Positions 1,634 through 11,274 of a stretch of 64,000 nt of DNA are shown here, piece after piece (positions within the stretch are counted from its first letter, which is position 1; every line of letters starts with the position of its first letter). Origin of the DNA: Rhodococcus jostii RHA1 (GTDB taxonomy: Bacteria; Actinomycetota; Actinomycetes; Mycobacteriales; Mycobacteriaceae); contig NC_008270.1 in NCBI RefSeq assembly GCF_000014565.1, positions 62,001-126,000 of the forward strand, in the 5' to 3' direction. The notes beneath the pieces were generated by a model that saw only the letters and a list, made by a program, of their open reading frames with translations, was not told the DNA's origin and ran no database searches. The position numbers and the translations under genes were made by a program.

Positions 1634-2589
1634 GTGTCCCCACCGGTCGCACGCATTTCATCCGCACCGCTGATGGCACCTCCTTGGCTGTGAGTGAGGT
1701 CGGATCCCGGACGGCGCCGGTCACTGTGATCTTTGCGCACGGATTCTGTCTCCACATGGACGCATGGGCACCGCAACGGGCCTACCTGGCCGAGGTCTGG
1801 TGGGGGCGTGCCCGGTTGGTCTTCTTCGATCACCGCGGCCATGGCAGATCTGGCGGGGCGGACGTCGGCAGTTACACGATTGTCCAGCTTGGACGGGATC
1901 TGGATGTGGTGATTCGCACGGTGGCGCCAAAGGGGCCGATTGTCCTCGTCGGGCATTCGATGGGCGGGATGGCCGTGATGTCCTACGTCGCCCATCACCA
2001 AGAGGCCGCGGCCGCGCAAATCATCGGGGTCGGGTTGATCTCGACCGCCGTCGACAATGTCGCCGGCGCCGGCATCGGGCGCGCTCTGAGAACGCCGGCG
2101 GTGACGTTGCTGCGGACGGCATCAGCTCACGCCCCAGGGCTCGTTGGCCGCAGCTGGGATCTCTCACGTCGCATCTTGTCGCCGGTGGTCGGCGCAACTT
2201 GCCCGCTTGCTCCGAGTGCAAGTGTCCGTGCCGCCGCCACGTCCTACGGGATGGTTCACGCGACGCCGATCGCCACTGTGGCCGCCTTCCTGCGTGATCC
2301 GCGGATATACGACGCTTCCCCGGCGCTCGACGTGCTCGCGCGGGTGCCGGCGTCGATCATCTGTGGAACCCGGGACAGGGTAACCCCGATCGGACACTCA
2401 CAGCGACTCGCAGCGGCTCTTCCACTCGCCGAACTCATCCCGGTGAGCGGAGCGCGACACATGGTCGGCCTCGAGCGCCCTGCCGTGGTGAGCGAGAGTC
2501 TCGATCGACTGCTCGGCCGCGCGGTGGGGCGCCGCGAACAGGCCACCACCCGCAGATCCAAATACACCCTCGTCGGGCGTGAGATCTGA
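1630..2589 (+). CDS. Alpha/beta-fold hydrolase
   Basis: A 319-residue cytosolic alpha/beta hydrolase. Visible landmarks are the oxyanion-hole HG (37-38), HRGHGRS (about 68-74), the nucleophile elbow GHSMGG with Ser110, a late Asp in CGTRDRVTP and the catalytic His in GARHMVG near the C terminus, so the triad is complete. The substrate cannot be told. The start at 1630 was chosen over longer in-frame starts because conserved sequence begins just after it and because it overlaps the upstream short frame by ATGA. Its stop shares one base with the next gene, indicating a coupled pair. Confidence 0.85.
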   Translation: MSVPTGRTHFIRTADGTSLAVSEVGSRTAPVTVIFAHGFCLHMDAWAPQRAYLAEVWWGRARLVFFDHRGHGRSGGADVGSYTIVQLGRDLDVVIRTVAPKGPIVLVGHSMGGMAVMSYVAHHQEAAAAQIIGVGLISTAVDNVAGAGIGRALRTPAVTLLRTASAHAPGLVGRSWDLSRRILSPVVGATCPLAPSASVRAAATSYGMVHATPIATVAAFLRDPRIYDASPALDVLARVPASIICGTRDRVTPIGHSQRLAAALPLAELIPVSGARHMVGLERPAVVSESLDRLLGRAVGRREQATTRRSKYTLVGREI

Positions 2590-3476
2590 TGGGACGCAGC
2601 CATGACCGGATCAGCCCAGACCGCGGCAACGGTGTTTTCGATCCCGACCGGGGCGACAGCGACGTCGCCACCCGCAAGGAAGGCGCCCTGATCTCGCAGC
2701 ACGCCTACGACACCCGCGCCGATCTCCGCAGCGGAGCACGAGAACTCGACACCGCCACCGAGAACCTACCCGGATTGACCCGGGCGCAGCGGGACCTCAA
2801 CCGTGCCTATCCACGGCCCACGCCGGCGGCAATCGGAAACTCTCGGCTACGCCCCCGGCTGCCACCAGCGATCGAACTCCGTCGCACACTCTCGGCACGG
2901 CAACGGAACACCCGATCCGCGGCGAAGCGCCGCGTCCTCGACGCTATGCCGAAAGCCCAGTACACGGCGCTGGCGGCGTTGACGTCGGACCCGAAGACCT
3001 GGCGGGAGACGAACAACGCCCTCTCCGCGGTGGCCGGCGACGCTGTCGAGCTCGACGATGCTCGCCGCAAGCAGGTCCAACGAGTGGACAGGGCAATCCA
3101 ACGATACGAACGCGAATCCGGACGAGGGCATTTGGTGTACACCTCGGTGAGCATCCCCAACGCGGTCGTGAACCCGTCAGATCTGCCCTCGACGCTATCG
3201 CCGGGGACGGTCCTGTCCTTCGACCGGTTCACTGCGGCAACCCATTCGCTGCACGAGCTGGACTTGACCGCCCGGCCCTCCGATGTCGTCTTTGAGATCC
3301 AGACCGACCGGGGCATGTACTACGGGCAATCTTCCCGCGTAGTCAACTCACACCATCTGCTGCCACGAGGAATGCAACTCCGGGTGGTGGGGGCTCATTT
3401 TGTGCCGTACGAGCGGCCCGGACAGCCGCCGGGGGAGCGCCTGGTCGTCCAACTTGTCGATCACGAGACGCCATGA
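2589..3476 (+). CDS. ADP-ribosyltransferase-like protein
   Basis: 295 residues. The first 130 are basic and probably helical. The C-terminal 130 look like an ADP-ribosyltransferase exoenzyme fold: a strand with LVYTSVSIP, then LSFDRFTAATHS in the place of the STS motif, VVFEIQTDRGMYYG, and HHLLPRGMQLRVVGAHF where the catalytic ExE loop normally lies. The expected glutamates are not seen (SHH instead), so it may be inactive, a variant, or wrongly assigned. The start is coupled (TGATG) to the hydrolase stop, and a small gene follows closely. Such a domain could act as a toxin or effector, but that is inference. Confidence 0.45.
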   Translation: MGRSHDRISPDRGNGVFDPDRGDSDVATRKEGALISQHAYDTRADLRSGARELDTATENLPGLTRAQRDLNRAYPRPTPAAIGNSRLRPRLPPAIELRRTLSARQRNTRSAAKRRVLDAMPKAQYTALAALTSDPKTWRETNNALSAVAGDAVELDDARRKQVQRVDRAIQRYERESGRGHLVYTSVSIPNAVVNPSDLPSTLSPGTVLSFDRFTAATHSLHELDLTARPSDVVFEIQTDRGMYYGQSSRVVNSHHLLPRGMQLRVVGAHFVPYERPGQPPGERLVVQLVDHETP

Positions 3477-3532: not shown

Positions 3533-3727
3533 ATGACTGCGGACAAGCTGCGCCACCGGCGCCCCGACCTGACCTTTCATCCCGATATCTTCGCTGCGCC
3601 CGCGCAATTCAGAGTGGTGAAAGCCGCGCCACACGACGATGCGGTTCCGGCCGCGGACACAACGCAAGGGAAGGAGGGCTCCGGCGCCGACGCTTATACC
3701 GGACGACGAGATGGCAAGGGGCTGTGA
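3533..3727 (+). CDS. Small hypothetical protein
   Basis: A 64-residue frame starting MTADKLRHRR. The ATG at 3533 is preceded by GGAAGG at about 10 bases. An earlier ATG at 3473 overlaps the previous stop and would add 20 residues. The product is hydrophilic with no recognisable domain. It ends the hydrolase/ART-like unit. Confidence 0.45.
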   Translation: MTADKLRHRRPDLTFHPDIFAAPAQFRVVKAAPHDDAVPAADTTQGKEGSGADAYTGRRDGKGL

Positions 3728-5087: not shown

Positions 5088-5504
5088 ATGACGATTACGC
5101 CAGCAGCCCACAAGAAGGCAATCGAGGCCGCACGAAAGAATGCGGAAGCACTGGCGCAGAAGGCAATCGAAACACGAGTCGCGCTTGTCGGAGCCATCGG
5201 GGAAGCGGTGGAAGAGCTTGCCGCGCTCGATTCCGCACGCGAGGCAGCTGTAGATGCAATCAGGACGGCCCACGAGAACGCGATCGAAGGCGGATGGACG
5301 GCCAAAGAGCTCGCAGCCATGGGTTACACCGCCCCGAAGAAGCGGAAGAGCACATCCGGTAAGGCCGTGCGTGGTGGCGCCGGCAAGGACGCGACTGAGA
5401 CGACCGACGTCGCAGATGCTGCTGCACCGCAGGGAGGCGATCAGCCGCCGAGCACCGACGGGCAGATCTCCAGCGAGCGTGAACCTGAGCATTCCTACAG
5501 CTAG
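5088..5504 (+). CDS. Hypothetical helical basic protein
   Basis: 138 residues behind a GAAGGAG site. Residues 1-65 are strongly helical and probably coiled-coil (AIEAARKNAEALAQKAIETR). The segment GWTAKELAAMGYTAPKKRK is basic, and the C-terminal 50 residues are low-complexity Gly/Ala/Asp. It may bind nucleic acid through the Lys-rich middle. No family recognised. Confidence 0.55.
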   Translation: MTITPAAHKKAIEAARKNAEALAQKAIETRVALVGAIGEAVEELAALDSAREAAVDAIRTAHENAIEGGWTAKELAAMGYTAPKKRKSTSGKAVRGGAGKDATETTDVADAAAPQGGDQPPSTDGQISSEREPEHSYS

Positions 5505-5623: not shown

Positions 5624-6196
5624 ATGACCAGTACACAGACGTCTCCGCAGCAGTGGGCACGGGGCATGCTCGTCCCCGGCCGGGCAGTGGTTCTGGACGT
5701 TGAATCGACCAATTTGGACGGCAGCATCATCGAAATCTGCGTTTTGGACGCCGCGACCGGGGATCCACTGCTCGATACCCTGGTCGATCCGGGCGAGGTT
5801 CCGATCCACCCGGACGCGTATGCCGTGCATGGAATTGCCCCGGCCGATCTGATCGGCGCACCTGGCTGGTCTACTGTCCACCAGGCTCTGATTGCGGTGA
5901 CCACTGGGCGAGTGACGCTCAGCTACCACAGTGAGTTCGACAAGGGTCGCGTTCTCCATGATTGTGCTCGGCACGGTCTCGACCCTGCGCACCTCGCCGA
6001 CTCCGAGATGTGGGGATGCATCATGCGGATGCGATCGCAGGCCGAGGGCACCGAGAAGAGCATTCGGCTCGATGGCGGACACCGAGCCCGCAGCGACGCT
6101 GCGGCCGCCCGCACCGTCCTGCTCGGCATCGCGGAGGGCGCCTCGGCGGCATCCACCACCGTGGACCCCGCCACTACCTCCCACTTGCCGGCGTAG
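5624..6196 (+). CDS. DEDDh-type 3'-5' exonuclease
   Basis: 190 residues. Exo I is VVLDVESTNLDG (Asp and Glu metal ligands), followed by HPDAYAVHGI, Exo II is LSYHSEFDKGRV, and Exo III is GGHRARSDAAAA with the H-x4-D of the DEDDh class. It resembles DnaQ/epsilon-like proofreading domains and plasmid or phage TREX-like nucleases acting on DNA or RNA ends. AAGGAGG precedes the ATG. It stands alone between a helical protein and the toxin-antitoxin pair. Confidence 0.8.
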   Translation: MTSTQTSPQQWARGMLVPGRAVVLDVESTNLDGSIIEICVLDAATGDPLLDTLVDPGEVPIHPDAYAVHGIAPADLIGAPGWSTVHQALIAVTTGRVTLSYHSEFDKGRVLHDCARHGLDPAHLADSEMWGCIMRMRSQAEGTEKSIRLDGGHRARSDAAAARTVLLGIAEGASAASTTVDPATTSHLPA

Positions 6197-6318
6197 TCCA
6201 CCGTGCCGCACGTTCGAGGCGGGTCCGGTAGCAGTCTCCTTGTGGGTCTGCTCTCTCGGCTGGTGTCCTTGCTGGGATCCTGATTGTGATTTACCCTGGG
6301 ATCTGGAGGTGGTTCGTG

Positions 6319-6711
6319 ATGACCGCAGCACATCCCCGGCCGGATCTGGAGGCGTACAACCAGGCCGCCCGTATGTCCCAGCCCGAGCTGGTCACCGCGT
6401 TGCGGGAGCTGCTGGGCGCGAAGCTGGTCGCCTATCTGGGGCGGGTCAAGGAGACCCGTGCAGTGCGCCAGTGGGCAGAGGGCACACGGACGATCGGTAG
6501 CGACTCGGATGTGGAACGGCTGCGGATCGCGTACCGGGCGGCACGGCTGATCACCGCCCGCGACACCCCGGCGGTGGCGCAGGCCTGGTTTCAGGGTTTG
6601 AATCCGATCCTCGACGACCGCGCCCCCGCCTTGTTGCTGCGCGAGGGGGAACTCGCCGATGTCGGGCCGCAGGTCCTCGCCGCGGCCCGGCAGTTCGCCG
6701 CCGTCGGATGA
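6319..6711 (+). CDS. Xre/MbcA/ParS-type antitoxin of a RES module
   Basis: 130 residues. The C-terminal part (ERLRIAYRAARLI, AVAQAWFQGLNPILDDRAPALLLREG) matches the toxin-binding MbcA/ParS/Xre (DUF2384) domain, including the typical NP-L-D-P-like segment. The N-terminal part is a degenerate helix-turn-helix. The ATG at 6319 was chosen because GGAGGTGG lies just upstream. Its stop overlaps the toxin start by ATGA. Antitoxins of this family neutralise RES toxins and repress their own operon. Confidence 0.8.
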   Translation: MTAAHPRPDLEAYNQAARMSQPELVTALRELLGAKLVAYLGRVKETRAVRQWAEGTRTIGSDSDVERLRIAYRAARLITARDTPAVAQAWFQGLNPILDDRAPALLLREGELADVGPQVLAAARQFAAVG

Positions 6712-7460
6712 CCCAGGTCGACCATGCCCTCGTCGCCACGGCGCAAGGGTCGATGTGGTGCGCCCACCGATATGGGTGCGAGGTCTATCGGGTCGGGTTC
6801 GCGCCGTCGCCGTGGGAATGGACACCGTGGGTGTACGCCACCGACGGCCGGTTCACCGGCCGGTGGGACGACCCGGACGGTGTGTGGCGCACCCTCTATG
6901 TGGGTGCCAGCCGATTGGCCTGCTACCTGGAGGTCCTCGCCTACGCCCGGCCGAGCGCGCAGGTGATCGCGGATCTGGACGAGATCGTCGTCGACGACGA
7001 GGATGCCGCCGCATTCCCCACTGTCGAACCCGGCCGGGTGCCGCGGTCGTGGTGCGTGCCTCGCATGGCCGCCCACGGCGCGCTGACGGGGTGGTTTGCG
7101 GTCCCCGGGCATCCCGAGACGCTGGCCACGCTGCGTGTCGGGTTTCGGTCGGCCGCGATCCGGCACGGACTCGATGATCTCGACGGCGCCGCGATTCGGG
7201 ACGGCCGCCCGCGGGCGTTGACGCAGGCAATCTCTAAGTGGATCAATACCCTTGGCGGTCCGGACGGATATCCGATCACCGGTGTCGAGTTCGACTCGCG
7301 GCACGGTGACGGGCTGCGGTTGTGGGCAGTCTACGAGCGACCGGGTGACCCGGTGGTCAGCCCCCATGTCACCGCACTGGATCAGATGCCGGTGGCACCC
7401 GACGACGGTGACCTTGCCGGGGCGATGCGTCTGCTCGGACTCGAATGGGACGACACGTGA
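6708..7460 (+). CDS. RES-domain NAD+-degrading toxin
   Basis: 250 residues with RES-family landmarks: the conserved Arg in CEVYRVGF, TLYVGASRLACYLEVLA (the family-defining Glu in YLE), and GVEFDSRHGDGLRLWAVYE toward the C terminus. RES toxins such as MbcT deplete NAD+ and stop growth until the partner antitoxin is present. The ATGA overlap with the upstream antitoxin gene and antitoxin-first order are standard. Likely role: plasmid maintenance or abortive defence. Confidence 0.85.
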   Translation: MTQVDHALVATAQGSMWCAHRYGCEVYRVGFAPSPWEWTPWVYATDGRFTGRWDDPDGVWRTLYVGASRLACYLEVLAYARPSAQVIADLDEIVVDDEDAAAFPTVEPGRVPRSWCVPRMAAHGALTGWFAVPGHPETLATLRVGFRSAAIRHGLDDLDGAAIRDGRPRALTQAISKWINTLGGPDGYPITGVEFDSRHGDGLRLWAVYERPGDPVVSPHVTALDQMPVAPDDGDLAGAMRLLGLEWDDT

Positions 7461-7614: not shown

Positions 7615-8469
7615 TCAGACGAATTCGCGGATCCGGGGGAGGACGTGGGCGAGTTCTTCGAAGAGGTTCGGCCATCCGCGGCGGAGGCGGGTGATACGGC
7701 CGTGTTCGAGGAAGGCGCCGTCGAGCATGTGGGAGACCCGTAGGTGTTTTTCGGGGGTGCCGAGTCGGCGGAGTGTGTCGTAGACGGGGTTCACCGGTAG
7801 CTGGTGGTGGGCGATGTAGGCCCAGATCTCATCGACGCTCCAGTCCCACATGGGCCCGAAGACATGTGTTCCGTCGGCTCGGTCGATGAGGCCGCCGTGG
7901 TGTCGGCGTTGCTCGGTGGTGTTGGTGCAGCAGCCGTCGCAGTCGCGTGTGACGTGGCTGCTGAGTGCGTTGTAGTACAGCGACCAGCGTCCGGTCCCTT
8001 TCGGTGATTCGTCGGCGCGTACGCCCCAGATTTCTCCCGGCCCGTGTGTCGCGTGCGCCGCGCGGGAGGGTGCACCGATGAGGATCTCGCGCAGCTTCTG
8101 GCTCGTGGCTCGCGTGGGCTGTTGGTGGTCCCATTCGCCGGACTGGGCGAGGACGGTCAGCAGTGGTGGGTCGGCGCGGTGGGGTTCGAGGTTGAGGTTC
8201 CAGGTGTCGGCGAGTGCGGTGATGTAGGTGTAGGTCTCGGGGTACTCGAGGCCGGAGTCGAAGAACACGACGGGGATGTTCGGTTCGACCTGCAAGGTGA
8301 GGTGCAGTGCGACGAGTGAGTCCTTGCCGCCGGAGAAGGCGAGGTATCCGTCGTGGTCATCGAGGTGCTGCTCGATGCGCCCGGTGAGGGCCCTGAGGTC
8401 GCGGCGGGGCCGGCGCAGTGCCCGGAGAGTGTTCAGGTCCAGGCCGTCGGGTTCGGGCTTGCCCGCCAC
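7615..8469 (-). CDS. cysH: CysH-like PP-loop ATPase of the type IV-B CRISPR locus
   Basis: 284 residues of the PAPS-reductase/N-type ATP pyrophosphatase family. The PP-loop is SGGKDS (46-51), followed by VVFFDSGLEYPET. A DCDGCC cluster lies in the middle, WDWSVDEIWAYI follows, and RRGWPNLFEEL lies near the end. It is transcribed divergently from csf1-cas11-csf2-csf3. A cysH-like gene next to csf genes is the hallmark accessory gene of subtype IV-B, so it is probably not a sulfate-assimilation enzyme. The start at GTG 8469 has AGGAGG just upstream; an ATG at 8484 lacks a ribosome site. Its biochemical role in IV-B is unsettled. Confidence 0.85.
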   Translation of the reverse strand: MAGKPEPDGLDLNTLRALRRPRRDLRALTGRIEQHLDDHDGYLAFSGGKDSLVALHLTLQVEPNIPVVFFDSGLEYPETYTYITALADTWNLNLEPHRADPPLLTVLAQSGEWDHQQPTRATSQKLREILIGAPSRAAHATHGPGEIWGVRADESPKGTGRWSLYYNALSSHVTRDCDGCCTNTTEQRRHHGGLIDRADGTHVFGPMWDWSVDEIWAYIAHHQLPVNPVYDTLRRLGTPEKHLRVSHMLDGAFLEHGRITRLRRGWPNLFEELAHVLPRIREFV

Positions 8470-8515
8470 ACGTCCTCCTCGCATTGTCCGGTCGGTATCG
8501 AGATCTCGCAGTTTC

Positions 8516-8549
8516 TGTCACACAGTGTCCGCCCGGTGGATCTTCCTCC
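8516..8549 (+). promoter_or_regulatory. Shared TGTCAC-N16-GGATCTTCCTCC motif, copy 2 (csf operon)
   Basis: TGTCAC at 8516 and GGATCTTCCTCC at 8538 with the same 16-base spacing as copies 1 and 3. It ends 46 bases before the csf1 start, a sensible promoter distance, and lies in the divergent cysH/csf1 intergenic region. Confidence 0.6.
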
Positions 8550-8595
8550 ATGCGTAGGGCGTTTGAAGTCGCCTGGGCATGTGAGGAGTGTTGGT

Positions 8596-9273
8596 GTGGG
8601 GAAACTGTGCGAGGTGGCCGGCCGGCAGGACGTCGTCGCCGCGGCATTCGCGTCGACGAAGACGCGTGAGGTAGTCGAGCTGGCGAGGGTGGGCCGGTGT
8701 GCGAGATGCGCGGCGTTCCCGGTTCCGGTGGAGGCGGTGACCAAGGTGGTCTCCCGAACGTTCACGGGTTTCGATTCGTGGAAAGCGCCCGCGGAGGGTG
8801 GGCTGTGCACGTCCTGCGCCTGGGCCTACCAGCACCCGGATCTGCGCAGAAGCATGCATGTGGTCACCACACGATCAGCAATGAGGGCAGTGACCGCGGC
8901 GGATCTCGAACGGATCTTGTCGCAGCCGCTCGAGCCGGACACCGCCGTGGTGGTGCCCTTGCGGCCCGGCCGAAAGCACATCCTGCCGCACGCACGGTGG
9001 GGCGGGATTGCGGTCGAGGACACGTGCCTGCCCTGGACTACGCGTGACGTCGCGGCGGTGACAGCGATGCGCCGACTGCGGGCGCTAGGGTTCGGTGCCC
9101 GCATGCTCGCCGAGCCTGCGGCCCCGTATCCGGTGCTCACCACGATCGCCCCCAGGCGGTGGCCGGCGGTCTTCGCGGACTGGGACCGTCTCGCCCCGTA
9201 CCGCCAGATCGGGCAGTGGTGGGAGCTCGCACTGCGAGCCACCGTGTCGGCGAGTGCGAAAGGAACGAAATGA
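8596..9273 (+). CDS. csf1: Csf1, large-subunit-like protein of type IV-B CRISPR-Cas
   Basis: 225 residues. Two CxxC pairs, CARC (35-38) and CTSC (71-74), flank KVVSRTFTGFDSWK and form the zinc-finger region typical of Csf1, the Cas8-like subunit. The rest lacks conspicuous motifs. The GTG at 8596 is preceded by GAGGAG at 7 bases; upstream in-frame sequence overlaps the divergent gene and is not protein-like. The stop overlaps cas11 by ATGA. Assignment rests on the zinc finger, the size and the csf2/csf3 neighbours. Confidence 0.8.
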   Translation: MGKLCEVAGRQDVVAAAFASTKTREVVELARVGRCARCAAFPVPVEAVTKVVSRTFTGFDSWKAPAEGGLCTSCAWAYQHPDLRRSMHVVTTRSAMRAVTAADLERILSQPLEPDTAVVVPLRPGRKHILPHARWGGIAVEDTCLPWTTRDVAAVTAMRRLRALGFGARMLAEPAAPYPVLTTIAPRRWPAVFADWDRLAPYRQIGQWWELALRATVSASAKGTK

Positions 9274-9686
9274 CCAGCCCGACCGATCGATGGCTCGCGG
9301 CCGCACCGGCGGGGCTGCCGCCGCTCAAGGGGCCGGCGGCAACAGCAGAACGCCTGCTGCTGTTGCTGCACTACGGGATCGACTGGGATTCGGGATGGGT
9401 CGGCCGGCGACGGGAAACGTACTGGACCCAGCACCTGCCGAACCGTGTTCGGGTCGCCACCTATATCGGTGGCGGCGATCTCGACCGGTGGTGGTCGGTG
9501 GTCTCACGGTCCCTCGAATCGGAACCGACGAACACCGACCAACGGCTGGAGCTGGCGACGTTGCTCCGTGAGGAGTCCGAGCCGGTGCTGACGTTGCTAC
9601 GTGAGCGTCCAACGTCGTACGTGCTGCGCACACGGATCGTCGCCGAAGCCGTGGCCGCCGCTCGCACTTCGGGAAGGAAGAAATGA
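9270..9686 (+). CDS. cas11: Cas11-like small subunit of type IV-B
   Basis: 138 residues, predicted nearly all-helical (ATAERLLLLLHYGIDWDSG, LELATLLREESEPVLTLL). It sits between csf1 and csf2 with 4-bp overlaps at both ends, exactly where IV-B loci carry the small alpha-helical Cas11 subunit. The sequence alone would not identify it; position and helicity do. Confidence 0.7.
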   Translation: MTSPTDRWLAAAPAGLPPLKGPAATAERLLLLLHYGIDWDSGWVGRRRETYWTQHLPNRVRVATYIGGGDLDRWWSVVSRSLESEPTNTDQRLELATLLREESEPVLTLLRERPTSYVLRTRIVAEAVAAARTSGRKK

Positions 9687-10552
9687 TGAGGTCGACGGTG
9701 CGCTGGGATGTCGAGCTGACCGCGCTGTCCTCGATCTCCCAGAAGGGGGAGGACTCCGGAACGACGACGACACTGCTGCGGCGCGAGCCGGTGATCCAGC
9801 CGGATGGCAAGCCGGTGCTGGTGCCGATCGTGTCCGGGAACTCCCTGCGCGGCGGGTTGCGCAGGATCGCCGAGGAGCTGTTCCGCGATGTCATCGGCTA
9901 CGAACAGCAGATCCCGCTCTCGGCGGCGCACGCGCTACGCAACGGCGGTTCTCTGACGAAGGTCACCGGCGACGGTCTGACCGGTCGTCGGCGGCAGCGA
10001 CTGCGGGAGCTGGTTCCCCCGATCGGGGTGTTCGGCGGCAACGGCGGAGGTCAGCCACCGATCGATGGCTGCCTGAAGGTGGGCAAGGTGGTCCCGCGGG
10101 TGCGTGAGACCGAGACGATCATGACCCGGGCGTATGACGGCCGGCTGATGAGTCAGTTCGAGTTGGTCTCCCTGGAGAGCTACAGCCGGTTCGACGACAC
10201 CGACACCCGGGCGTTCCCCGAATCCTCCGCGGGGGGCGGAGCCGGCAAGGATGTCGGCTCGTCGATGCTGATGCGATTCGAGGTCGAAACACTCCCTGCG
10301 GGAACCCGTTTCGAAACCTTCTTGCGGCTGGACCGGGCCACCGAACTCGAAATCTCGTTCTTCACCGATGTGTGGGGCAGATTCGCGCGTGACGGATTCC
10401 TTGGAGGGCGCAGCGCGATAGGTCACGGGCGGGTTCGCGCCGAATCGGATCGGGTGGTGTTGGCCGGTCCGGACCCGCGGTCAGTGGACTGGCGTGTCGA
10501 GCTGACGCCACTGCGCGATGAGGTCATCGAAGCATTGTGCTGGCTGACATGA
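9683..10552 (+). CDS. csf2: Csf2, Cas7-like backbone subunit
   Basis: 289 residues of the RAMP superfamily. Landmarks are SSISQKGEDSG near the start, the glycine-rich IVSGNSLRGGLRRIAEELF, VSLESYSRF, and the C-terminal glycine loop FLGGRSAIGHGRVRAE. Csf2 polymerises along RNA to form the filament of type IV complexes. It starts inside the cas11 stop (ATGA) and its own stop overlaps csf3. GGAAGGAAG precedes the start. Confidence 0.85.
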   Translation: MMRSTVRWDVELTALSSISQKGEDSGTTTTLLRREPVIQPDGKPVLVPIVSGNSLRGGLRRIAEELFRDVIGYEQQIPLSAAHALRNGGSLTKVTGDGLTGRRRQRLRELVPPIGVFGGNGGGQPPIDGCLKVGKVVPRVRETETIMTRAYDGRLMSQFELVSLESYSRFDDTDTRAFPESSAGGGAGKDVGSSMLMRFEVETLPAGTRFETFLRLDRATELEISFFTDVWGRFARDGFLGGRSAIGHGRVRAESDRVVLAGPDPRSVDWRVELTPLRDEVIEALCWLT

Positions 10553-11274
10553 CGGGCACCGAGGAGATGGCACCGTTCCTGGTGCGGGCGCACCTGTCGT
10601 CGGGACTGGCGCACGCGACGCCGTGGGGAATCAGTCTCGACGGGATCCTCGCCGCCGAACTGTGGGCCGATCACAAGGCCACGGCATGGGGCCGAGGCGA
10701 GTATGTGCCGGCGCTGACACCCGGGAGCGCCCCGCCGGATCTCAAGCTGCCACTGGCGCGATGCGAGCTCGCCGGCGAGGACTGGCATTGGTGTGCGACG
10801 TGCTCGTTCCCCGAGGACCCGGCCGGTGATCCCGTGGTGCGGCACTGGGCGTCGCGGGCCGATCACCGCGGGCTCGAGCAACTCAGTCACACGCTGCCGG
10901 CGGTGATCTCGGATCGGCAGGGCCGCTACCGGGCTCGTTACATGCCCCTGATGATCACCAGCACTCGCACGGTCACCTGGCGCGGAGTTGGAGATCTCGA
11001 CGCCGTCGCCACGATCCTGGGTGGCCTGGATGTCATCGGTAAGAAGCGGGCCCATGGTGAGGGCAGGGTCCTGCGGTGGGAGTTCGAACACTGCCCCGCC
11101 GCCGACCGGTGGGCGTCGGCGCACCTGCATAGCGACGGCACTCTCGGGCGCACCACACCACCGGCCTGTCTGCCCGATCTACTCGAACCGGAATCGGCCG
11201 GCTTCGGGTTGGCCGGTCTGCGGCCGCCGTACATGCACCCGACCCGAATGCGGCAACTCCACCTACCTCGATGA
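10549..11274 (+). CDS. csf3: Csf3, Cas5-like subunit
   Basis: 241 residues. RAMP features are HATPWGISLDGILAA early and the glycine-rich loop LDVIGKKRAHGEGRVLRWEFE late, as in Cas5/Csf3 proteins. In Csf3 the -GxGxV- loop packs against the 5' end of the bound RNA. The ATG overlaps the csf2 stop. It is the last gene of the operon and is followed by a terminator; no csf4/dinG, csf5/cas6, cas1, cas2 or array follows. Confidence 0.8.
   Translation: MTGTEEMAPFLVRAHLSSGLAHATPWGISLDGILAAELWADHKATAWGRGEYVPALTPGSAPPDLKLPLARCELAGEDWHWCATCSFPEDPAGDPVVRHWASRADHRGLEQLSHTLPAVISDRQGRYRARYMPLMITSTRTVTWRGVGDLDAVATILGGLDVIGKKRAHGEGRVLRWEFEHCPAADRWASAHLHSDGTLGRTTPPACLPDLLEPESAGFGLAGLRPPYMHPTRMRQLHLPR

Follow-up and report, generated by a model that had tools for sequence, protein, structure and literature searches.

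Type IV-B CRISPR-Cas loci have been published as a unit of csf1, cas11, csf2, csf3 and cysH, and reviews treat the role of these loci as unsettled; CysH has been called the key and has yielded no answer. In the IV-B complex of Mycobacterium sp. JS623, Csf2 and Cas11 assemble into a filament along RNAs that are uniform in length and mixed in sequence, and the complex made in E. coli holds mixed RNA of ~55-60 nt (PMC7937560). An atypical IV-B locus that includes cysH and a mini-array of two repeats has been described in an archaeal virus (PMC10848311). Here, we describe the IV-B locus in a 64,000-nucleotide stretch of Rhodococcus jostii RHA1 plasmid pRHL2 (NC_008270.1, positions 62,001 to 126,000; hereafter the window, by whose positions its features are given), together with a gene 4 kb beyond cysH that encodes a protein of predicted ADP-ribosyltransferase (ART) fold. 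This gene, here called fam5, is probably a true functional partner of the IV-B module. No link between fam5 and IV-B was found in the literature searched (Pinilla-Redondo 2020 and Shmakov 2018 lay outside that search, and a mention there is possible), and it is this link that appears to be new.

Linkage of fam5 to the csf genes

Open reading frames (ORFs) were clustered around 25 IV-B loci, which were sorted by hand into 20 groups. Besides the known genes, one more widespread family was recovered, fam5, present in 16 of the 20 groups. Among 72,556 plasmid records, csf2 is found in 66, fam5 in 57 and IV-B-type cysH in 59 (cysH counted at E 1e-30, the others at E 1e-5). All but two of the 57 fam5 records are also csf2 records, and fam5 occurs in 55 of the 60 csf2 records compared; 65 of the 66 could be identified by accession, and the five of these outside the comparison have no fam5. 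Because the plasmid lists contain close relatives, 55/57 does not amount to 55 independent cases, and group counts were therefore used: in 17 of 18 csf2 groups (80% identity) fam5 shares a replicon with csf2, and in 23 of 29 loci it falls inside the sequence retrieved.

Whole genomes give a similar picture. In the genus sample (28 genomes), fam5 is present in all nine csf2 genomes, among which G016 is counted by a 39-residue csf2 piece only, and two further genomes hold fam5 fragments and no csf2. The order sample (397 genomes) has fam5 in 5/5 csf2 genomes and in two others, once on a 7.3-kb contig and once as broken pieces. The class sample (394 genomes) has two fam5 genomes, both with csf2; its nine csf2 matches comprise these two, two distant IV-B loci without fam5 and five weak partial matches. 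In the order and class samples the best 6 candidates per genome were scored, so that weak copies could be missed, and the chance value for the linkage, 2.6e-10, presumes independent genomes. In the protein databases, the match lists of fam5 and cysH share 10 exact contig sizes (119 of 120 sizes used), where 0.8 are expected and at most 6 were seen in 5000 jittered trials.

The spacing between fam5 and csf2, measured in 38 of the 55 shared records, has a median of 7.1 kb and is 15 kb or less in 31. Gene order differs by clade: fam5 is convergent to cysH in Rhodococcus, and stands in the order fam5-small ORF-cysH in Gordonia, whereas in Xylanimonas and Cellulosimicrobium it lies upstream of csf1. 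Mycolicibacterium sp. TY66 has a one-strand fam5-X-cysH series whose genes overlap by 4 bp. The arrangement thus varies and yet the genes stay near one another, which indicates closeness kept through rearrangement. A short motif, R-P-[DE]..[VF]HP[DEQ]I, recurs in the small ORF after fam5 in other loci (13 rows of short, weakly alignable ORFs chosen by place). Across 19 loci, fam5 distances correlate with those of csf2 (0.945), csf1 (0.932), csf3 (0.927) and cysH (0.915), with 0 of 2000 permutations as high; the value for csf2 against csf3 is 0.933. When the ORFs of each of three reference plasmids were searched for in 13 others, csf1, csf2, csf3, cysH and fam5 reached 12 or 13 of them and the next best families 5; two of the 14 plasmids are complete and several are covered for ~17 kb around csf2 only, leaving the backbones of the latter mostly unseen, and cas11 is missing from the family list, probably lost to the overlap filter.

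The ART-fold protein and CysH

The structural model of the fam5 protein is an ART fold. Canonical ARTs carry the catalytic motifs R, S-T-S and E-x-E. Compared with C3-like and VIP2/iota-type ADP-ribosyltransferases, fam5 does not keep these motifs and has an extra N-terminal region (~residues 1-85). The family has its own invariant residues, R179, H181, D212, E236 and R241, with H256 near-invariant.

CysH is modelled as a PAPS reductase/PP-loop fold, with PAPS and APS (phosphoadenylyl and adenylyl sulfate) reductases and an ATP sulfurylase subunit as its closest folds. Its SGGKDS motif is present in 22/22 loci, which suggests that ATP use is kept, against a review that calls CysH inactivated (PMC11656645). 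Its cysteines behave differently: unlike PAPS reductase, CysD and FAD synthase PP-loop enzymes, the IV-B CysH proteins share no conserved cysteine. In 6 of the 22 loci the matched CysH stretch has no cysteine at all; four of these six lack the whole segment, and one (L042) is matched only from profile position 32 on. Among 68 close relatives, the cysteines of the C-D-G-C-C motif in the window CysH are almost invariant, and pRHL3-like loci lack the segment that bears the window's C-x-x-C-C. An invariant PP-loop beside variable cysteines argues against sulfur chemistry by CysH. The pattern extends a case made by Taylor et al. (PMC8175902), in which CysH uses ATP for activation and transfers no sulfur.

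The locus, its replicon and its neighbours

A preliminary description of the window, made from its sequence alone, placed a complete IV-B locus at 7615-11274. The five genes sit there as claimed (Table 1), and the profile search that it proposed matched every one strongly. cysH diverges from an intact csf1-cas11-csf2-csf3 operon, and several of the finer features described were recovered: the SGGKDS of the PP-loop gene, the two CxxC pairs of csf1 (all four cysteines kept in 22/22 compared loci), the small protein, which is cas11, and the 4-bp overlaps, each of them ATGA (csf1/cas11 at 9270, cas11/csf2 at 9683, csf2/csf3 at 10549). NCBIfam models TIGR03114, TIGR03115 and TIGR03116 match csf1, csf2 and csf3 below their curated cut-offs. 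For csf1, the start annotated in pDK2, a near-identical plasmid, was adopted in place of the ORF start at 8353, and the longest ORF for the cysH-like gene is 7615-8484.

Table 1. Positions in the window, strands and supporting matches of the IV-B genes, fam5 and the ORF that follows it.
Feature	Positions	Strand	Remarks
ART-fold gene fam5	2589..3476	+	295 aa; proposed further IV-B module partner
Small ORF after fam5	3533..3727	+	64 aa; annotated in near-identical plasmid
cysH-like PP-loop gene	7615..8469	-	284 aa; PF01507 E 1.8e-21; start after NZ_CP118329 annotation
csf1 (large-subunit-like, two CxxC pairs)	8596..9273	+	225 aa; PADLOC typeIV_Cas8 E 1.1e-88
cas11 (small subunit)	9270..9686	+	138 aa; PADLOC typeIV_Cas11 (PDLC01482) E 3.8e-62
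csf2 (Cas7-like backbone)	9683..10552	+	289 aa; PADLOC E 4.7e-104
csf3 (Cas5-like)	10549..11274	+	241 aa; PADLOC E 8.2e-99

Gene content, the lack of a detected array and plasmid location all agree with subtype IV-B. The plasmids pRHL1, pRHL2 and pRHL3 of RHA1 measure 1,123,075, 442,536 and 332,361 bases (PMC2667194), and the locus lies on the second of these. What had been taken for another plasmid locus is, by replicon and position, almost certainly the reference IV-B locus of the classification itself, RHA1_ro10069-ro10072 (PMC7434947, PMC8036902), with ro numbers assigned to the window genes by position (about gene 70 at ~70 kb); taken by itself, the five-gene locus is not new. The five genes were correctly recognized; as a unit they are probably too few, since the ART-fold gene is omitted. 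RHA1 has a second, distinct IV-B locus on pRHL3, with a csf2 47% identical; a search of the genome contigs with a single csf2 query returns one locus only.

No CRISPR-like repeat was detected on pRHL2, scanned whole in pieces, and on pRHL3 the whole-plasmid scan gave two repeat runs, both of them tandem, with units of 78 and 66 bp (Tandem Repeats Finder); the scan, covering the two plasmids with a IV-B locus, is blind to an array spanning the joint of two pieces or having fewer than three exact 20-base repeats. Consistent with the claim that the locus lacks cas6 and dinG, the RHA1 genome has no match to Cas6 (PF10040; control found in 2/14 genomes, no csf5-specific model run), and the only matches to the csf4 dinG model (TIGR03117) are DinG-like, chromosomal and below cut-off. 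Cas1 is also absent from the genome (control positive in 9/14 genomes). The outcomes named beforehand as contradicting the assignment, no Csf2 or Csf3 match, or a cas6 or array with the locus, did not appear. No Rfam family matches the window at gathering thresholds, and no tRNA lies in it. The idea of a guide RNA between cysH and csf1 was rejected because other genes occupy this gap in several other loci; one of these is a MinD/ParA-like or AAA ATPase gene (L023, L024, L025 and L033), dropped as a IV-B partner on account of its four loci only. Phage origin was also set aside, no csf2 or fam5 relative being confirmed in IMG/VR contigs by pattern-based scans, which divergent copies could escape.

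The suggestion of flanking regulators fared poorly: the nearby WhiB, DEDDh and RES/Xre genes are not general to IV-B loci. As partners, neither the RES/Xre pair (6286-7460) nor the DEDDh nuclease (5624-6196) recurs across distant loci, and RES is found in 44 plasmid records, 8 of them in the csf2 list. The pair itself consists of a RES-domain gene (PF08808) and a small upstream partner, probably a toxin-antitoxin system, and adjoins cysH in close plasmids only. Elsewhere, csf1 sits in a longer open frame in two distant actinobacterial loci (L123 of genome G580 and L124 of G590), is split in NZ_CP046575 (L020, 2208-7582) by an insertion that carries a DUF6262 gene and tyrosine recombinases, and is separated from cas11 in NZ_CP069243 (L036, 6053-7327) by a HEPN-domain gene. 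At the start of the window, direct repeats of ~159 bp (3-833; 73-79% alike) lie in ORF 19-1005.

Competing explanations and comparison with known systems

The explanation that we favor, with a probability of about 0.6, is that a Csf RNA filament and two nucleotide-using proteins together serve the plasmid. The working unit would consist of the Csf RNA-protein filament, CysH and the ART-fold protein. CysH would use ATP to activate a substrate through adenylylation and would transfer no sulfur, and an NAD-type or ADP-ribosyl-type ligand would be used or bound by the ART-fold protein; between them, a nucleotide mark would be put on, or read from, RNA, DNA or protein held by the filament, to the benefit of the plasmid. 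This division of chemistry between CysH and the ART-fold protein is tentative, and we would rate it well short of an even chance. The same holds for the fullest statement of the idea, in which type IV-B may be an RNA-templated nucleotide-marking machine of plasmids and not a crippled CRISPR system, its filament holding RNA, its CysH, free of conserved cysteines, adenylylating, and its ART-fold protein adding, swapping or reading an ADP-ribosyl-type mark.

Several observations weigh against this explanation or against fam5 as a partner. Five of the 60 csf2 records compared have no fam5, including NZ_CP092100 with an intact csf2, which as a one-record group (L026) is also the only csf2 group lacking it; for four of the five, a neighboring accession of the same species has fam5, which could sit on a sister plasmid if the strain is the same. 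The distant loci G580 and G590 have csf1, csf2, csf3 and cysH adjacent and no fam5 detected genome-wide at this sensitivity, and the 10 neighboring ORFs searched, out of 80 listed, all lacked a Pfam hit; fam5 is therefore a mark of the main plasmid lineage in actinobacteria and does not extend to all of IV-B. It is open in decayed loci of RHA1, at pRHL2 425000-442536 (L084) with a full-length cysH match and a csf2 scrap only, and at pRHL3 56001-76000 (L053) beside a cas11 scrap, and so may act without the filament. Its enzyme activity is uncertain because the position of the canonical ART catalytic Glu varies: position 255, placed via the LLPRG match, is occupied by A, Q, S, T or G in 74 of the 85 sequences. 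Finally, the gene at 5088-5504 (138 aa) occurs in 29 plasmid records, all Rhodococcus and 29/29 in the csf2 list, so that exclusive co-occurrence inside one genus can be plasmid kinship; being found in Rhodococcus only, it is itself a candidate IV-B partner at most.

Two alternatives are about equally unlikely. According to a published hypothesis, the Csf filament is an RNA sponge that soaks up small guide RNAs and lets plasmids escape RNA-guided defense, CysH and the ART-fold protein being side players. The mixed RNA bound by the JS623 complex suits this (PMC7937560), but it leaves unexplained the invariant PP-loop of CysH and the invariant residue set of fam5, and the RHA1 host has no Cas1 (other RNA-guided defenses were not searched for). 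In the second alternative, fam5 merely belongs to the backbone of a family of actinobacterial plasmids, on which IV-B happens to be carried as well. The exclusively Rhodococcus gene at 5088-5504, the survival of fam5 in decayed loci and the wide gap to csf2 seen at times (64.7 kb for R. fascians and 115 kb for NZ_CP113952) all point that way. They are set against the closeness to csf2 that persists across arrangements and against the covered plasmid parts, several of ~17 kb only, which share fam5 and csf genes yet no replication or transfer gene reaching more than 5 of 13 others; in contrast to the gene at 5088-5504, fam5 spans genera whose plasmids share little else in those parts. Sulfur chemistry by CysH, as DNA phosphorothioation or RNA thiolation of a DndC- or TtuA-like kind, is very improbable, since the reductase and sulfurylase folds of its model and the window's near-invariant C-D-G-C-C cysteines speak for it but the motif is missing elsewhere and six loci lack cysteine in the matched stretch.

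If type IV-B is such an RNA-templated marking machine, the ART-fold gene would be one of the components that define its main lineage in actinobacteria, and one that has been overlooked. With a nucleotide-enzyme fold in a second conserved partner, the question of IV-B function narrows to nucleotide chemistry, and a simple gene-deletion set becomes available in a well-studied soil bacterium.

The filament half of the favored explanation leans on the described JS623 complex. A putative catalytic Asp has been published for JS623 Csf2, and a possible counterpart, the aspartate of a PDG motif, is Asp in 11 of 15 rows, with an uncertain match in numbering; a nuclease role for Csf2 was dropped, this column not being invariant. 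Over its whole length, a profile of 15 Csf2 proteins matches the Csf2 of the JS623 complex (PDB 7jhy) at E 2.6e-106, and the two systems have the same operon genes.

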